From: an uncultured Prevotella sp.
GTDB taxonomy: Bacteria > Bacteroidota > Bacteroidia > Bacteroidales > Bacteroidaceae
Reading direction: 5' to 3'
Length of the DNA stretch: 39,620 nt
Assembly: GCA_905236815.1 (NCBI GenBank)
Contig: CAJOPE010000112.1
Span: 1-39,620, forward strand
The notes below the pieces were generated by a model that searched no databases, had not been told where the DNA came from, and worked only from the letters and a program-made list of their open reading frames with translations. The position numbers and the translations under genes are program-made. Below are positions 3,001-37,638 of this stretch, in pieces (the stretch's first letter is position 1; every line of letters begins with the position of its first letter).

Positions 3001-3984
3001 CTAATACTGGAATCGGGCAACAAGCGGCAAATGATCGCTGAAGCCATTCTGATATCTAGGACCAAGATAACAACGGCGGGGTTTTACTCCGCCGTATTTT
3101 GTATCCTCCTCCAGCAGAAATTCCAAATCACCAATATAACATTCTTTATTTCTTCGGGTAGTAGCAGGGCTAGACAGAATTTGGTCAAGGCTGCCCCATT
3201 CGCCGTGATAGCGATAGGTTCCTTTCGCTCCACGGCTTCCTTTTGCATCGGCGGATACATTTGTCAACTGATGCTTATAAAGACTGTCTAACGCAGGAGA
3301 ATCCTTATAATCGTTGAAATCTCCGGCAATTATAATATGTGCAGAGTCTTCTAGAGCGTAAATAGAGTCGACAGCAGCTGCTAAATAGCGCTGGACAAGC
3401 ATTCGGTTAGGGCGTGAGGCTTTCTCGCCTCCAGAGCGACTAGGTGCATGAACAACAAAAACATGCAGTGAGTCATCGCTTAACAAGCGTCCCTTTACAT
3501 AGAGAATATCACGTGTGGGTTTCATCCCGGCACGAGGAATGATGCGAATAGAATGATGGGTTATCGGTTGAAAGGTCATAGGATTGTACATCAGGGCAAC
3601 ATCAATTCCTCGCTGATCAGGTGAATTTGTCATCAGGTATTCATAGCGTGCCTTTCGAAGCAGTGAACGCTTTGTCAAATCCCGCATCACCGTATCATTC
3701 TCCACCTCGCATAGAGCCACCAAATCAGGCAAACTCCATTCAAAATGAGTTTTAGAAGCAGAATACATCTCCCCTTCGGGGAGGCTTGGTGGGGTTCCCA
3801 GCGCAATAATTTCCTGTGAAATATGGTTGAGTTTCCGCCAATAGCGCGTACGAGTCCAATGGTAATTACTTTCGGGTGTAAACTCGATATCGTTTTTTAG
3901 CGAATCGTGTTGGGTATCGAAAAGATTCTCGCAATTCAGTTCTACAAAAGTAAGCAGACTTGCTGCCAATATAGCTAATGACAT
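3001..3984 (-). CDS. Endonuclease/exonuclease/phosphatase family protein
   Basis: 327 aa; ELNCENLFDT, VALCEVEN, IIIAGDFND, GFSDHLPLVARF motifs. Confidence 0.9.
   Translation of the reverse strand: MSLAILAASLLTFVELNCENLFDTQHDSLKNDIEFTPESNYHWTRTRYWRKLNHISQEIIALGTPPSLPEGEMYSASKTHFEWSLPDLVALCEVENDTVMRDLTKRSLLRKARYEYLMTNSPDQRGIDVALMYNPMTFQPITHHSIRIIPRAGMKPTRDILYVKGRLLSDDSLHVFVVHAPSRSGGEKASRPNRMLVQRYLAAAVDSIYALEDSAHIIIAGDFNDYKDSPALDSLYKHQLTNVSADAKGSRGAKGTYRYHGEWGSLDQILSSPATTRRNKECYIGDLEFLLEEDTKYGGVKPRRCYLGPRYQNGFSDHLPLVARFQY
3769..3797. repeat. REP-like palindrome (type A) inside a coding sequence
   Basis: ctccccttcggggaggcttggtggggttc; the same word occurs reverse-complemented at 14505-14535 and in diverged form at 19169-19199. 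Confidence 0.85.
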
Positions 3985-14504: not shown

Positions 14505-14537
14505 AACCCCACCAAGCCTCCCCGAAGGGGGAGGATG
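14505..14537. repeat. REP-like palindrome (type A)
   Basis: aaccccaccaagcctccccgaagggggaggatg; reverse complement matches 3769-3797 and 19169-19199. Confidence 0.85.
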
Positions 14538-14721
14538 TTTTTTTATTGTTGTTTATATTTCTGCTGACTCAGATTTTAGTCAGTTTTTTCTTTTTTGTAG
14601 GATATCTTGTTTGGCGAGTTTGAGGCTCACTTTGCAATCTCCTGCTATATTTGTTTGCTCATTGCAAAATTTGATATCTTTTTGCCCAAAACTAAAAATG
14701 ATATGGGCTTTCTCCAGCATT

Positions 14722-18210: not shown

Positions 18211-18246
18211 AGCCCTCTCCCTGAAGGGGAGAGCGGGGAGAGAGGC
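18211..18246. repeat. REP-like element (type B)
   Basis: agccctctccctgaaggggagagcggggagagaggc; 35-nt exact copy at 37604-37638. Confidence 0.93.
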
Positions 18247-18253
18247 TTTTTTT

Positions 18254-19153
18254 TTATTTTCTACCGAAATCGGCAGGAATCTCACCCCATTTCTTAGTTT
18301 CCCATTTCAGAATAGGAGTTGTTACATTATGAGTCTGCAGCCAATGCTCACCTCGGGCGATAATCTGATAGAGCTCCTCGGTTTGCGCATTGCGCTCCAA
18401 TTTTGTCTTGCATTTCTTGTTGTTCACCCAAATGGCAGCATTCACACTATCAGAATAAATCACCTTGTCGGTAATTCCCTTCTGCTGCATCAATGCCAAA
18501 GCGTGAACAATGGCGAGAAATTCGCCGATGTTATTCGTGCCGTGAACCGGACCAAAATGAAATACCTGAGTGCCAGTAGAAAGGTCGATGCAGCGATACT
18601 CCATTGGACCAGGATTGCCCGAACAAGCGGCATCCACCGCCCATGCATTCCGCTTCACCTCCATAGGGAAAGAGCGCATAGCTGTGCCTGCCGGCTTTGA
18701 GGCAACTCCAGAAGGAGATGCAGCTGAAGTCGACTGAGTTTGTGGATTCTGACTAGCAAATGATACTTTCATTTTTTGAATAACTCCTTTAATCTGATAG
18801 CCCACTTTGTGGATGTTTGTCATCACTTCGCCTTCGGAGAAGCAAATGACAGTATATCCCATTCTGTTGAGATCAGCCGTTCTTTGTTCTTCAGAGACCG
18901 GCTGATCTCCCTTGAAATGGTATTTGCCTTCTACCTCTACCACTAATTTGTGGTTAGAACTAGCAAAGTCGGCAATATAGTCACCAATAATCTGCTGGCG
19001 CTTGAATTTCTCGCCGATGTAGGTATTGGTTCTAAGAAAATTCCAAAGCGCTCTTTCGGCATCGGTCATAAACAGTTTGTTTTCCTCGGCATACTGCTTC
19101 AGCTGTTCATAATCCACTCCTTCTGAGGTCGCATTGAAATTCTTCTTCGTCAT
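18254..19153 (-). CDS. DUF559-like endonuclease-fold domain fused to RNase HI
   Basis: Start MTKKNFNATSEG at 19153. N-term LWNFLRTNTYIGEKFKRQQIIGDYIADFASSNHKLVVEVEGKYH...; C-term AVDAACSGNPGPMEYRCID, NNIGEFLAIVHALALM, KVIYSDSVNAAIWV. Confidence 0.88.
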   Translation of the reverse strand: MTKKNFNATSEGVDYEQLKQYAEENKLFMTDAERALWNFLRTNTYIGEKFKRQQIIGDYIADFASSNHKLVVEVEGKYHFKGDQPVSEEQRTADLNRMGYTVICFSEGEVMTNIHKVGYQIKGVIQKMKVSFASQNPQTQSTSAASPSGVASKPAGTAMRSFPMEVKRNAWAVDAACSGNPGPMEYRCIDLSTGTQVFHFGPVHGTNNIGEFLAIVHALALMQQKGITDKVIYSDSVNAAIWVNNKKCKTKLERNAQTEELYQIIARGEHWLQTHNVTTPILKWETKKWGEIPADFGRK

Positions 19154-19168
19154 AATCGTTAAATAAAA

Positions 19169-19199
19169 CATCCTCCCCCTTCGGGGAGGCTTGTTGGGA
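19169..19199. repeat. REP-like palindrome (type A)
   Basis: catcctcccccttcggggaggcttgttgggat. Confidence 0.85.
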
Positions 19200-19201
19200 T
19201 A

Positions 19202-23345: not shown

Positions 23346-25010
23346 TTATCTCTTGTTGATGAGAATGAATCCTCCCTTTTTTGATGGACTAGGAGAAGCT
23401 ACAATGCCCTTATAATTTTTTCCAACCTTCTGTCCTGCTAAGTTATATAGGGCATTGCCTGAACCTTGATTTTTCTCAATATTATGAATTCCATTCGTAT
23501 TCTTTCCAATATCGGAACTTGTACCAATTGTAAGCTCAAGATCATTGGCAATATCCTGCTTTTCCTCTCCATAGAAATTGATGTCTCCAAGTAAGCTAGG
23601 CATCAAATTTGGATAGATGATTGAAATCCAATATGCTTCGTCAAGAATATCGTTAGTTCTTTTTAGATTCTCATTACCTTCGGCATGGGTGAGGAATGCT
23701 TTAGATAGAGGAGAGTAGAGAGAAGTGAGACCTCGATTTTCCAGTTGTTTGAGAACTGCTTTGGCAAGGCGATTGCGTGCCATAGTGAGAAAGTTGGATG
23801 TGCTTTTTACTTCATTGATGAGTCCCGTGTGGATATTCATTACAGTGTTATTACTGTTGATAGTTATCCATCTATAGTGGCTGGGATAAGTGATAAGCGA
23901 ACCAGTAGTTACATCATATAATTCCTTTCCTGTCTGCTCGCCTGGATCTTTAGCTATGTCGGTGGTGTGAAAGTGGCCAGTAAAAACAACCTTGATACCT
24001 GCTTCCATCAATTGTTTTCTGATATTATCTGCATCGCTAACTGCAGAAGTACTGGATAATAGCATCTCATCAGAGAAATGTTCCATTATCGGATGGTGCA
24101 TCATGGCAATCACCTTGTAGCCTTCATGTCGGGCTTCCTTAGCCCGATCGGTCACCCATTGCAAAGTACTGGTTGAAAGTGAACCACTTTTAGAGTCGAT
24201 AGCTAGCAATTTTACGCCCTTTGCTATTTTCACAATATAACTGAGCGAGGAGGCATCCTGCTCTATGTTCCTGGCATAACCATGATCAGCATAGAGAGTC
24301 TTAAATTCTTCTTCGGAGATAGTTGCAGCCTTCTCCTTGTTACTGCCATTGTAATAAACGGCATTAGTGTTGTTAATATCATGGTTGCCAGGAATCACAA
24401 AGCTCTGGATGCCTGCCTCGCGAAGTTTCTTTAGTCCTTTTACTACTACCTCATGACTTAGCCGCTCACCATCTTTTGTGAGGTCGCCTGGAATCAGAAC
24501 AACCTCAGGTTTTCTTTTTAGAATAGAGTCGATAGCAGCCTGATAGAGTTCATAGCTGTAGTCTTCTAGTTTTCTGTCATTTTCAAGATAACTTTGCCAA
24601 GCACTTCCATCCTTCTTTATCAAGTCTGGGCTCATCACATGAATATCCGTCATCAAGAAAATATTCTTGCTGTTATGGTCGAAGTTATAGTTGATTCGAA
24701 AAGAATAAGATTTTGCATTCTCCTGGTTGTTCTTAATGCTCTTTACAGTATAGAGTCCTGGTTCGAGGGCAGATTTCATAGCAAATACTCCATTCTTGTT
24801 TTTCACGTCGAGAGAATCGAGCATAGGCTGGGATGCATTATCCTTATATAAAAGGATGGTTGAGCCAGAAGGAATATTCGAATATTGAATATCCACCAAT
24901 TCCCCAAAATTATAGTTCAACTTCTCTGTAGAGAAAGATTGAGCCGATAATTTTGTGTTGGTTAGAGCTAAAGTTGTAATTGCAAATAAGTAAATCCAAA
25001 ACTGTTTCAT
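23346..25010 (-). CDS. Secreted calcineurin-like metallophosphoesterase with C-terminal YNLAGQKV tail
   Basis: 554 aa; LMTDIHV, LIPGDLTKDGE, VIPGNHDINN, MMHHP, FTGHFHTTD. Confidence 0.92.
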   Translation of the reverse strand: MKQFWIYLFAITTLALTNTKLSAQSFSTEKLNYNFGELVDIQYSNIPSGSTILLYKDNASQPMLDSLDVKNKNGVFAMKSALEPGLYTVKSIKNNQENAKSYSFRINYNFDHNSKNIFLMTDIHVMSPDLIKKDGSAWQSYLENDRKLEDYSYELYQAAIDSILKRKPEVVLIPGDLTKDGERLSHEVVVKGLKKLREAGIQSFVIPGNHDINNTNAVYYNGSNKEKAATISEEEFKTLYADHGYARNIEQDASSLSYIVKIAKGVKLLAIDSKSGSLSTSTLQWVTDRAKEARHEGYKVIAMMHHPIMEHFSDEMLLSSTSAVSDADNIRKQLMEAGIKVVFTGHFHTTDIAKDPGEQTGKELYDVTTGSLITYPSHYRWITINSNNTVMNIHTGLINEVKSTSNFLTMARNRLAKAVLKQLENRGLTSLYSPLSKAFLTHAEGNENLKRTNDILDEAYWISIIYPNLMPSLLGDINFYGEEKQDIANDLELTIGTSSDIGKNTNGIHNIEKNQGSGNALYNLAGQKVGKNYKGIVASPSPSKKGGFILINKR

Positions 25011-32403: not shown

Positions 32404-34308
32404 TTAATAATTATCAACCTCCAATTCCTTAATATATTCCCAAAGTTTCTTGTAGAATGGATGCTTGGTGAGCGTATCCTTACTTCCTAGGATGATGAGT
32501 TTCATTCTGGCTCGAGTGATAGCGACATTCATTCTTCGAAGATCGCGAAGGAAGCCGATTTGTCCCTCATCGTTTGAGCGAACCATTGAGATGAGAATTA
32601 CATCACGCTCCTGTCCTTGAAATCCATCCACGGTATTAACAGTAATCAATCTCCGATATGGTTTGAAAAATTCGCGTTTGCGAATCAACTTTCGAAGATA
32701 CTGAACCTGTGCGCGATATGGCGATATAATTCCTACATCGATGCGTTCCTCGAGAATGCGATGCTTACCGATTTTGGTGAAATATTTCTCAAGGGTATCG
32801 AGGGTCATCTCTGCCTCGTCCTTGTTTACGCGTCCGAACGACTCGCCAATAAAAGCTTCCTTAAACTCCTGTTTGGCTTCCTCTCCTTCGGGAAGTTCAG
32901 GAGGGGTTACCCAAATAATCGGATGGTCATAGTCGAGGATGCCGCGATATTTTATCTGAGGGGCTGTTTCCACCATTCCTTGATAGAAGTAGTCGCTCGA
33001 GAAGCGCATAATCTGCTCATTCATTCGGTATTGCACTTTCAGCAATGTCACCACCTCTGGCTTGTTCTCCACAATCCGCTCCATCAGTGTCTTTCCCAGT
33101 CCCGCTTTCAGGGCGGCAATGCTCTTTACGGTTGGGGGCAGCTGACAATGGTCGCCTGCCAGAATCACTCTCGAAGCTCTTCGCATAGGTATCCAGCAGG
33201 CTGCCTCAAGGGCTTGGGCGGCCTCGTCGATGAAGAGTGTTCCAAATTTCTGTCCTTCAAGAATTCGGTTGGCCGAACCTACTAAGGTTGAGGCGATTAC
33301 ACGGGCCTCGCCAAAGAGTTCGGCATTAATGCGAATCTCTATTTCGGCTGCTCTCGACTTTAGTCGCTCTAGCTTCTGATGATAGCCATCGCTTCTCTTT
33401 TTTCCTCTTCGCAATTCTCGGATAGCCTTCCGGATAGCCCAGAGTTGGGGGTAGTCGGGATGTGCCTCGAAGCGACGCTCATAGGTGAAGGAGAGCATCT
33501 GATCGTTCACTTTGGTTGGATTTCCAATGCGCAAAACATTGATGCCTCTATCTACTAGCTTCTCGCAGATCCAATCTACCGCCATATTACTTTGCGCGCA
33601 TACAAGTACCTGACTTTCACGCATTAAGGTTTCGTTGATAGCCTCGACGAGGGTAGTGGTCTTTCCCGTTCCTGGAGGTCCATGAACCACTTCCACGTCC
33701 TTCGCCCAGAGCACTTCGTTCACAGCTTTCTCCTGCGATGGGTTGAGCCATGGAAACTTGGTTGCCTCGAAGCTGAAGTGCTGAGCTGGCATTTTCGAAT
33801 AGAAAAGGTCGCGAAGATAAGCCAGACGGTTGTTCTTGGCATTCGTTACTCGGTCGAGAGCCTCAAACATCAGCTTGTAGCTGGTTTCATCGAAGAAGAG
33901 CTGGATGCCTACCGGATTCTCACAACTCTGCACATCGATGATATGTCCATTGTCAGGAACGACAATCACCATGCGATTTCCATCGACATAGCTCACCGTA
34001 CCTGTGAAATTGAAATACGAGATTTTATTATCTTTACTTTGGAAAAAGGCGACAGGACGACCGAATTCGAAGTTATGCTCGATTTCCTCATCGCTCGTTC
34101 GAGTTACCTCGAGTGTCATCTGATTGAGCGAGTTATAGTAGCTTTTGCCAACTTTCAGCGGAAACCAGGCATCTCCTCTTTTCACTTTTCGCATCAATCC
34201 CATTGACTCGGTTTGCTTGCGGAAAGCTTCTTTCTCGGCATAATACTCAATCTGAAGGAGCATTTTCTGTCGTTGTAAAGCTTGTATTGGAGATTCTTGC
34301 TGGACCAT
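32404..34308 (-). CDS. Upf1/SMUBP2-like superfamily 1 helicase
   Basis: 634 aa; VVHGPPGTGKTTTLVEAI, LFIDEAAQALEAACW, LAGDHCQLPPTV, VNTVDGFQGQERDVILISMVRSN, NVAITRARMKLIILG. Confidence 0.95.
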   Translation of the reverse strand: MVQQESPIQALQRQKMLLQIEYYAEKEAFRKQTESMGLMRKVKRGDAWFPLKVGKSYYNSLNQMTLEVTRTSDEEIEHNFEFGRPVAFFQSKDNKISYFNFTGTVSYVDGNRMVIVVPDNGHIIDVQSCENPVGIQLFFDETSYKLMFEALDRVTNAKNNRLAYLRDLFYSKMPAQHFSFEATKFPWLNPSQEKAVNEVLWAKDVEVVHGPPGTGKTTTLVEAINETLMRESQVLVCAQSNMAVDWICEKLVDRGINVLRIGNPTKVNDQMLSFTYERRFEAHPDYPQLWAIRKAIRELRRGKKRSDGYHQKLERLKSRAAEIEIRINAELFGEARVIASTLVGSANRILEGQKFGTLFIDEAAQALEAACWIPMRRASRVILAGDHCQLPPTVKSIAALKAGLGKTLMERIVENKPEVVTLLKVQYRMNEQIMRFSSDYFYQGMVETAPQIKYRGILDYDHPIIWVTPPELPEGEEAKQEFKEAFIGESFGRVNKDEAEMTLDTLEKYFTKIGKHRILEERIDVGIISPYRAQVQYLRKLIRKREFFKPYRRLITVNTVDGFQGQERDVILISMVRSNDEGQIGFLRDLRRMNVAITRARMKLIILGSKDTLTKHPFYKKLWEYIKELEVDNY

Positions 34309-37603: not shown

Positions 37604-37638
37604 AGCCCTCTCCCTGAAGGGGAGAGCGGGGAGAGAGG
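37604..37638. repeat. REP-like element (type B)
   Basis: agccctctccctgaaggggagagcggggagagagg; identical to 18211-18245. Confidence 0.93.

Follow-up and report, generated by a model that had tools for sequence, protein, structure and literature searches.

An in-frame dispersed palindromic repeat in an endonuclease/exonuclease/phosphatase-family gene of an uncultured Prevotella and a possible relation to DUF559 nuclease genes flanked by inverted repeats

The window analysed here (the whole stretch of 39,620 nucleotides from an uncultured Prevotella sp., contig CAJOPE010000112.1) contains an intact gene of the endonuclease/exonuclease/phosphatase (EEP) family. Its product matches the Pfam family PF19580 (Exo_endo_phos_3; E 3e-63) and has kept the catalytic motifs NCEN, EVEN, GDFND and SDHLP, which are invariant across 60 aligned homologues. 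Within this minus-strand reading frame (3001-3984) lies the palindromic repeat CTCCCCTTCGGGGAGGCTTGGTGGGGTT, an exact 28-nt match to positions 3769-3796 of the plus strand. An earlier note made from the sequence alone had described a REP at 3769-3797, in frame in a gene of this family and with further copies at 14505 and 19169. The family assignment, the intact reading frame and the dispersal of the repeat bear this out and both further copies are real and intergenic; only the end of the palindrome has to be set one base earlier, at 3796. Read on the minus strand across 3765-3796 the repeat yields ...IIALG-TPPSLPEGEM-YSASKTHFEWSLPDLVALCEVEN, with (G)TPPSLPEGEM as the REP-derived peptide and GTPPSLPEGEMYSASK as the peptide across the insert. 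One consensus C is missing from this copy (ACAT-CTCCCC versus ACATCCTCCCC), and since it is one base short, insertion may have been followed by a repair of the frame. That REPs recur genome-wide and that the window also holds a DUF559 gene between REPs goes beyond what had been described before. The features are collected in Table 1.

Table 1. Genes and palindromic repeats located in the window
Feature	Position	Strand	Basis or remark
EEP-family host gene, intact, 327 aa	3001..3984	-	ORF; PF19580; kept invariant residues; AlphaFold
In-frame G-type REP in EEP gene	3765..3796	+	stem CTCCCC/GGGGAG, tail GCTTGGTGGGGTT
Intergenic G-type REP ACATCCTCCCCCTTCGGGGAGGCTTGGTGGGGTT	14505..14538	-	
A-type REP CTCTCTCCCCGCTCTCCCCTTCAGGGAGAGGGC	18212..18244	-	33/33 vs A-type consensus
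DUF559 (Vsr-like nuclease) fused to ribonuclease H domain	18254..19171	-	PF04480 E 9e-27; NF046109 E 6e-52
Intergenic G-type REP, directly upstream of DUF559-RNase H gene	19168..19201	+	
Probable decayed in-frame G-type REP, peptide TPPELPEGEE	32876..32908	+	no homologue comparison
A-type REP, same sequence as 18212-18244	37605..37637	-	

With up to two mismatches allowed the 15-nt core of the repeat has six matches in the window against 0.02 expected, and none of 100 shuffles reached six. Genome-wide the core with at most one mismatch was found at 29 places, mostly intergenic, and the reversed pattern used as control at none. Copies were read from individual loci and stretches of this genome, and their alignment gives a consensus of about 33 nt, here denominated G-type (AACATCCTCCCCTTCGGGGAGGCTTGGTGGGGTT), with flanks at background level. 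A second type from the same genome (A-type) has the consensus CCTCTCTCCCCGCTCTCCCCTTCAGGGAGAGGGC. With 29 G-type and 19 A-type copies the repeats satisfy the usual description of hairpin repeats of 20-40 nt that occur in many copies and also as inverted pairs, A-type examples of the latter being present in contigs C7, C74 and C134. The G-type consensus is open in all six reading frames, as are 4% of random 33-mers from the window. A search against Rfam returned tRNAs only.

The insertion becomes visible by comparison with homologues. In 195 distinct sequences, mostly of the same genus, the spacer between the motifs RYW and PDLVALC was measured: it comprises 20-29 residues in 179 and exactly 25, the modal length, in 112 of them, but 39 in the protein of the window. 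In the nearest homologue, which comes from G184 and shares 69% identity across the aligned protein, this spacer counts 26 residues, so that the net insertion amounts to 13-14 residues. An insertion had thus been correctly proposed in the earlier note, its extent of 15-20 residues being somewhat too large. The same note had named as refutation the presence of these residues in orthologues without the REP; TPPSLPEGE was absent from all of about 225 homologues searched. Its suggestion of a loop agrees with the AlphaFold model, which has the standard EEP fold and a mean pLDDT of 91.6. Residues 68-81, connecting helix 45-61 to strand 88-94, form the only internal segment below 50, and in this model the insert-bearing segment is a flexible loop. 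Because the insert is in frame, lies in this low-confidence loop and leaves the conserved motifs untouched, the enzyme is apparently intact.

This loop is tolerant of length, with spacers of 31-57 residues in 16 of the 195 homologues; some carry long unrelated inserts there and most only a short acidic loop. In two related species (loci L058 in G200 and L064 in G201) the palindrome CTCCCTCCCTAAGnAGGG..GGCCGGGGTGGGTCT is found at the same position. It differs from the G-type but shares its general build, is dispersed in both genomes and is read the opposite way to the window copy, stem first, as ETPSLSREGRGGSPPSW. The L064 insert is a composite of about 101 nt, and a second copy at another place in G201 matches it at 95% identity. 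As a different REP in opposite orientation occupies the same loop, insertion has occurred at least two times independently; the L058 and L064 insertions together count as one event at most. Inserts at this loop in L133 and L013 look REP-like and were set aside, as they were not shown to be repeated in their own genomes. Another species (L296, contig C15 of G097) has a tandem (AMLSQQRGG)n expansion there. That a mobile palindrome was inserted into the EEP gene is nearly certain in our view, even though its boundaries cannot be given precisely, as closely related strains that have the site empty are not available and even the closest homologue shares no more than 69% identity.

The EEP gene is one of many hosts. 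Among 57 REP places found in this genome about 14, the EEP copy included, are inside conserved genes. A helicase of 1311 residues (contig C7) has four in-frame REPs, a VirE/DUF3987-like protein (C74) three, two adjacent glycosyltransferases of families GT2 and GT4 (C54) one each and an RNA pseudouridine synthase (C134) an inverted pair, and two copies of DUF5675 carry in-frame REPs as well. Alignment with orthologues showed that these lack the inserts of the helicase; outside the EEP and helicase genes the evidence consists only of Pfam matches and the reading frame. In the window a DNA2/UPF1-like helicase gene (32404-34308, minus strand) is the host of the probable decayed copy, which agrees with the EEP copy in 24 of 33 bases and shares its reading frame; the low quality of the UPF1 alignment in this region is further evidence for it. 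A suspected in-frame REP at 23346-25010 (ASPSPSKKGG) was dropped since no good palindrome was present. Seven of eight in-frame G-type copies that were read, the decayed one included, use the frame encoding TPPxLPEGED. That one frame prevails although six are open suggests, by inference, selection for a hydrophilic reading. REPs also form C-terminal tails, namely in a sugar transporter (L336:2321-3965, TPPNLPEGEEL*) and a membrane protein (L337:1663-2983, TPPSLPEREDV*).

In-frame REPs are not confined to this genome: in G116, an unrelated genome of the genus that consists of a single contig, four of seven REPs read in a 400-kb sample lie inside long ORFs. Its dapF gene (L435:3-860; TIGR00652, E 2e-60) contains the two in-frame REP peptides LSTPLPHREGQGVG and ATPLPSERAGEAF, and an inverted REP pair is located inside an ABC-2 permease gene.

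The 1311-residue helicase mentioned above (contig C7, L333:2372-6305 in the genome of the window, G000) contains, besides one more A-type REP and one of G-type, inverted A-type REPs that flank a complete in-frame DUF559 domain (PF04480, E 9e-30). This REP-DUF559-REP block of about 146 residues sits between Walker A and the next helicase motif, and about 60 orthologues without it align as separate pieces, 33-768 and 915-1308. One orthologue (L346, contig C34 of G036) has a REP-DUF559-REP block of its own at the same site, and the block is absent from nearly all others aligned. On sequence evidence, the common site may reflect either site-specific homing or one old insertion. The DUF559-RNase H gene of the window also has a REP on either side, but as these belong to two different types the gene does not form a clean unit of this kind. 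Fusions of DUF559 with RNase H occur in L387, L400 and L403 too, in some with a REP-like peptide at the joint.

PF04480 was found in 36 of 60 genomes of the genus. Arms were scored by the best inverted repeat formed between the 350 bases that precede the DUF559 domain and the 300 bases that follow it, with a threshold of at least 16. By this measure inverted REP arms accompany 38 of 53 DUF559 loci in the genus, and at the remaining 15 no matching arms were found. Cross-pairs between loci reached the threshold in 5% of cases, control windows of the same genus in 1 of 216, random G116 windows in none of 2000 and positions of the window in none of 1934. In build the arms follow the G-type, being REP hairpins whose tail is GGGG-rich. 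At L468 and L471 the arms on the two sides (e.g., ACATCCCTCCCTTTGGGAGGGCTTGGGTGGGCT) agree with the G-type in 24-25 of 33 bases (shuffled arms in at most 20). No DUF559 locus of this genome has true G-type arms. In G116 each DUF559 locus has its own arm sequence, and the wider REP superfamily is present in that genome (six copies versus none in shuffles). The arm of L385, considered as a dispersed repeat, was rejected because it is not dispersed in 400 kb of G116.

Across the phylum DUF559 was detected in 78 of 148 genomes, with arms of score 16 or more at 8 of 30 loci. This weaker link is partly due to divergence of the arms, though REP-like peptides persist at the junctions and stand at most joints between DUF559 and host protein in Bacteroidota. 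Several conserved proteins of this phylum, some of them essential, contain DUF559 or are fused to it: LeuRS (in frame in L406, L408 and L430), MetH (L419, L424), ABC-F (L381), all three by Pfam, and IspF, guanylate kinase and a GDP-mannose-dehydratase-like epimerase (L391). In L416 the domain is in frame in a protein read, without Pfam support, as a type I methylase subunit. Outside the phylum 4 of 10 DUF559 loci on plasmid-collection records (Cyanobacteria, Deinococcus, Alphaproteobacteria) have matching arms. A perfect 40-nt inverted repeat flanks the DUF559 gene of a Pseudanabaena plasmid (L474, NZ_AP017561.1; a cyanobacterium). No link of DUF559 to REPs or palindromes was found in titles and abstracts, subscription papers being outside the scope of this search.

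Intragenic REPs are known from Rickettsia (Rickettsia palindromic elements, RPEs) and other bacteria (PMC3733652). Di Nocera 2013 sorted REPs by their GTAG or CGTC tags and noted intragenic copies, with Prevotella not mentioned (PMC3733652). GTAG REPs are moved by RAYTs in other bacteria (PMC2817692, PMC3733652), and CGTC REPs are stated to have no dedicated transposase; the CGTC tetranucleotide at one end is also the mark of RPEs (PMC3733652). The repeats described here resemble GTAG/CGTC REPs in being short, located mostly downstream of genes, sometimes inverted in pairs and in some cases in frame, often in genes of DNA metabolism. They differ in that this genome's two types have neither tag in their consensus and that a RAYT (Y1 transposase, PF01797) had no match in G000, a draft genome that is 92% complete, although control genomes gave matches. 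A GTAG is present in the tail of G199 REPs.

The likeness to RPEs proposed in the earlier note can be kept as an analogy. Both are palindromic and dispersed, occur between genes as well as in frame within unrelated coding genes (the defining property of RPEs met here), are tolerated by surface-type loops and have an unknown mobiliser. Membership cannot be upheld, since the CGTC tag is missing; moreover the sequence and phylum are different, the length is about 33 nt and there is a candidate nuclease partner. With neither tag present the G- and A-types are filed neither as RPEs nor as RAYT-REPs, and that they work like RPEs remains no more than an analogy. In REPtrons and REPINs (PMC2817692, PMC3116915) a nuclease gene likewise lies between inverted REPs, solo or paired REPs being non-autonomous derivatives, but there the gene encodes an HUH tyrosine transposase instead of the Vsr/PD-(D/E)XK-like DUF559, and in-frame insertion of the units is peculiar to the latter. 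Vsr-like EDxHD homing endonuclease genes share with DUF559 a Vsr-related nuclease within conserved genes, and the common site of L346 and the C7 helicase is a further likeness. One condition for homing, that the nuclease gene interrupts a conserved gene which most relatives have in continuous form, is fulfilled for the C7 helicase and, by Pfam, for LeuRS, MetH and ABC-F. In contrast with EDxHD genes, DUF559 units end in REP palindromes and are translated within the host protein, and Pfam revealed no intein or intron in these hosts.

Our preferred explanation is that a dispersed mobile REP of about 33 nt has entered the EEP gene in the loop that joins helix 1 to strand 2, where it is tolerated because it has no stop in six frames, offers the hydrophilic TPPxLPEGED frame and meets a loop of already variable length. 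Its position, frame, absence from homologues, independent recurrence and location in a loop rest on direct observation. The segment is inferred to be harmless and without function in the enzyme. Solo REPs would then most likely be MITE-like derivatives of REP-DUF559-REP units, in which a Vsr/PD-(D/E)XK-like nuclease gene between inverted REPs itself inserts in frame into genes. The paired architecture and the in-frame units were observed; from this arrangement we infer that the nuclease may cut or nick at or near the palindromes, thereby spreading the composite units, and may act in trans to move solo REPs. We consider this explanation as a whole (REP insertion, neutrality and derivation of solo REPs from DUF559 units) somewhat better than evenly supported, while the role of DUF559 as mobiliser, which is inferred only, stands at even chances or slightly below.

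Some other explanations have to be weighed. The extra EEP residues could be a native loop that resembles a REP by chance or convergence, given that this loop varies in length and composition and has long unrelated inserts in some homologues. Exact identity over 28 nt with a repeat present dozens of times, a peptide that no homologue possesses and the recurrence of its frame in unrelated proteins of this genome speak against this; we regard the native loop as already refuted by the sequence identity and assign it practically no weight. The segment could also have been kept for function, as an expression-tuning mRNA hairpin or a new interaction surface. The REP does form a hairpin on the mRNA strand (-10.5 kcal/mol, z -1.9) and many different genes hold intragenic REPs, but nearly all homologues of the family work without this segment and it is disordered in the model, which makes a retained function improbable.

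More serious, though still unlikely in our judgement, is that the REP was inserted in frame by a RAYT or another transposase that is unassembled or lost, DUF559 being merely a captured hitchhiker. RAYTs are the movers of GTAG REPs elsewhere, REPs are so common that a gene can be caught between two of them, and at 92% completeness of the genome an unseen transposase is possible. Against a RAYT stand the missing PF01797 match and the missing GTAG tag. Capture by chance fits poorly with arms that match within one DUF559 locus far more often than across loci, and with the fact that REPs enclose DUF559 again and again, in many genera as well as in 4 of the 10 cyanobacterial, Deinococcus and alphaproteobacterial loci.

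If the preferred relation between solo REPs and DUF559 units holds, REP-DUF559-REP would represent a distinct and widespread class of mobile DNA in bacteria, with a Vsr-like nuclease in place of a transposase spreading the palindromic ends. It could be the missing mobiliser of RPE-like or RAYT-less palindromes, units and solo REPs both inserting in frame, essential genes included. This proposal is tentative and we rate it a little under an even chance. The mover of RAYT-less REPs is still an open question, which becomes directly testable with DUF559 located between inverted REPs. For DUF559, a nuclease of unknown function, we describe a position between inverted REPs in most loci examined and in-frame entry into LeuRS and MetH. 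For annotation it should be considered that short Pro/Gly-rich peptides in Bacteroidota proteins (e.g., TPPSLPEGED, ALSLKGRAGRE or SPLPEGE) are often translated mobile DNA.

Further variants of the repeats were seen. G-type copies with extra tandem tail repeats of 10-13 nt (cttggtggggtt) occur in L082, L092, L095, L098 and L103. In L338:1174-3193 and L334:4494-6849 inverted A-type pairs enclose in-frame tandem repeats (e.g., EASTDNKASKIILQESLA) within coding genes.
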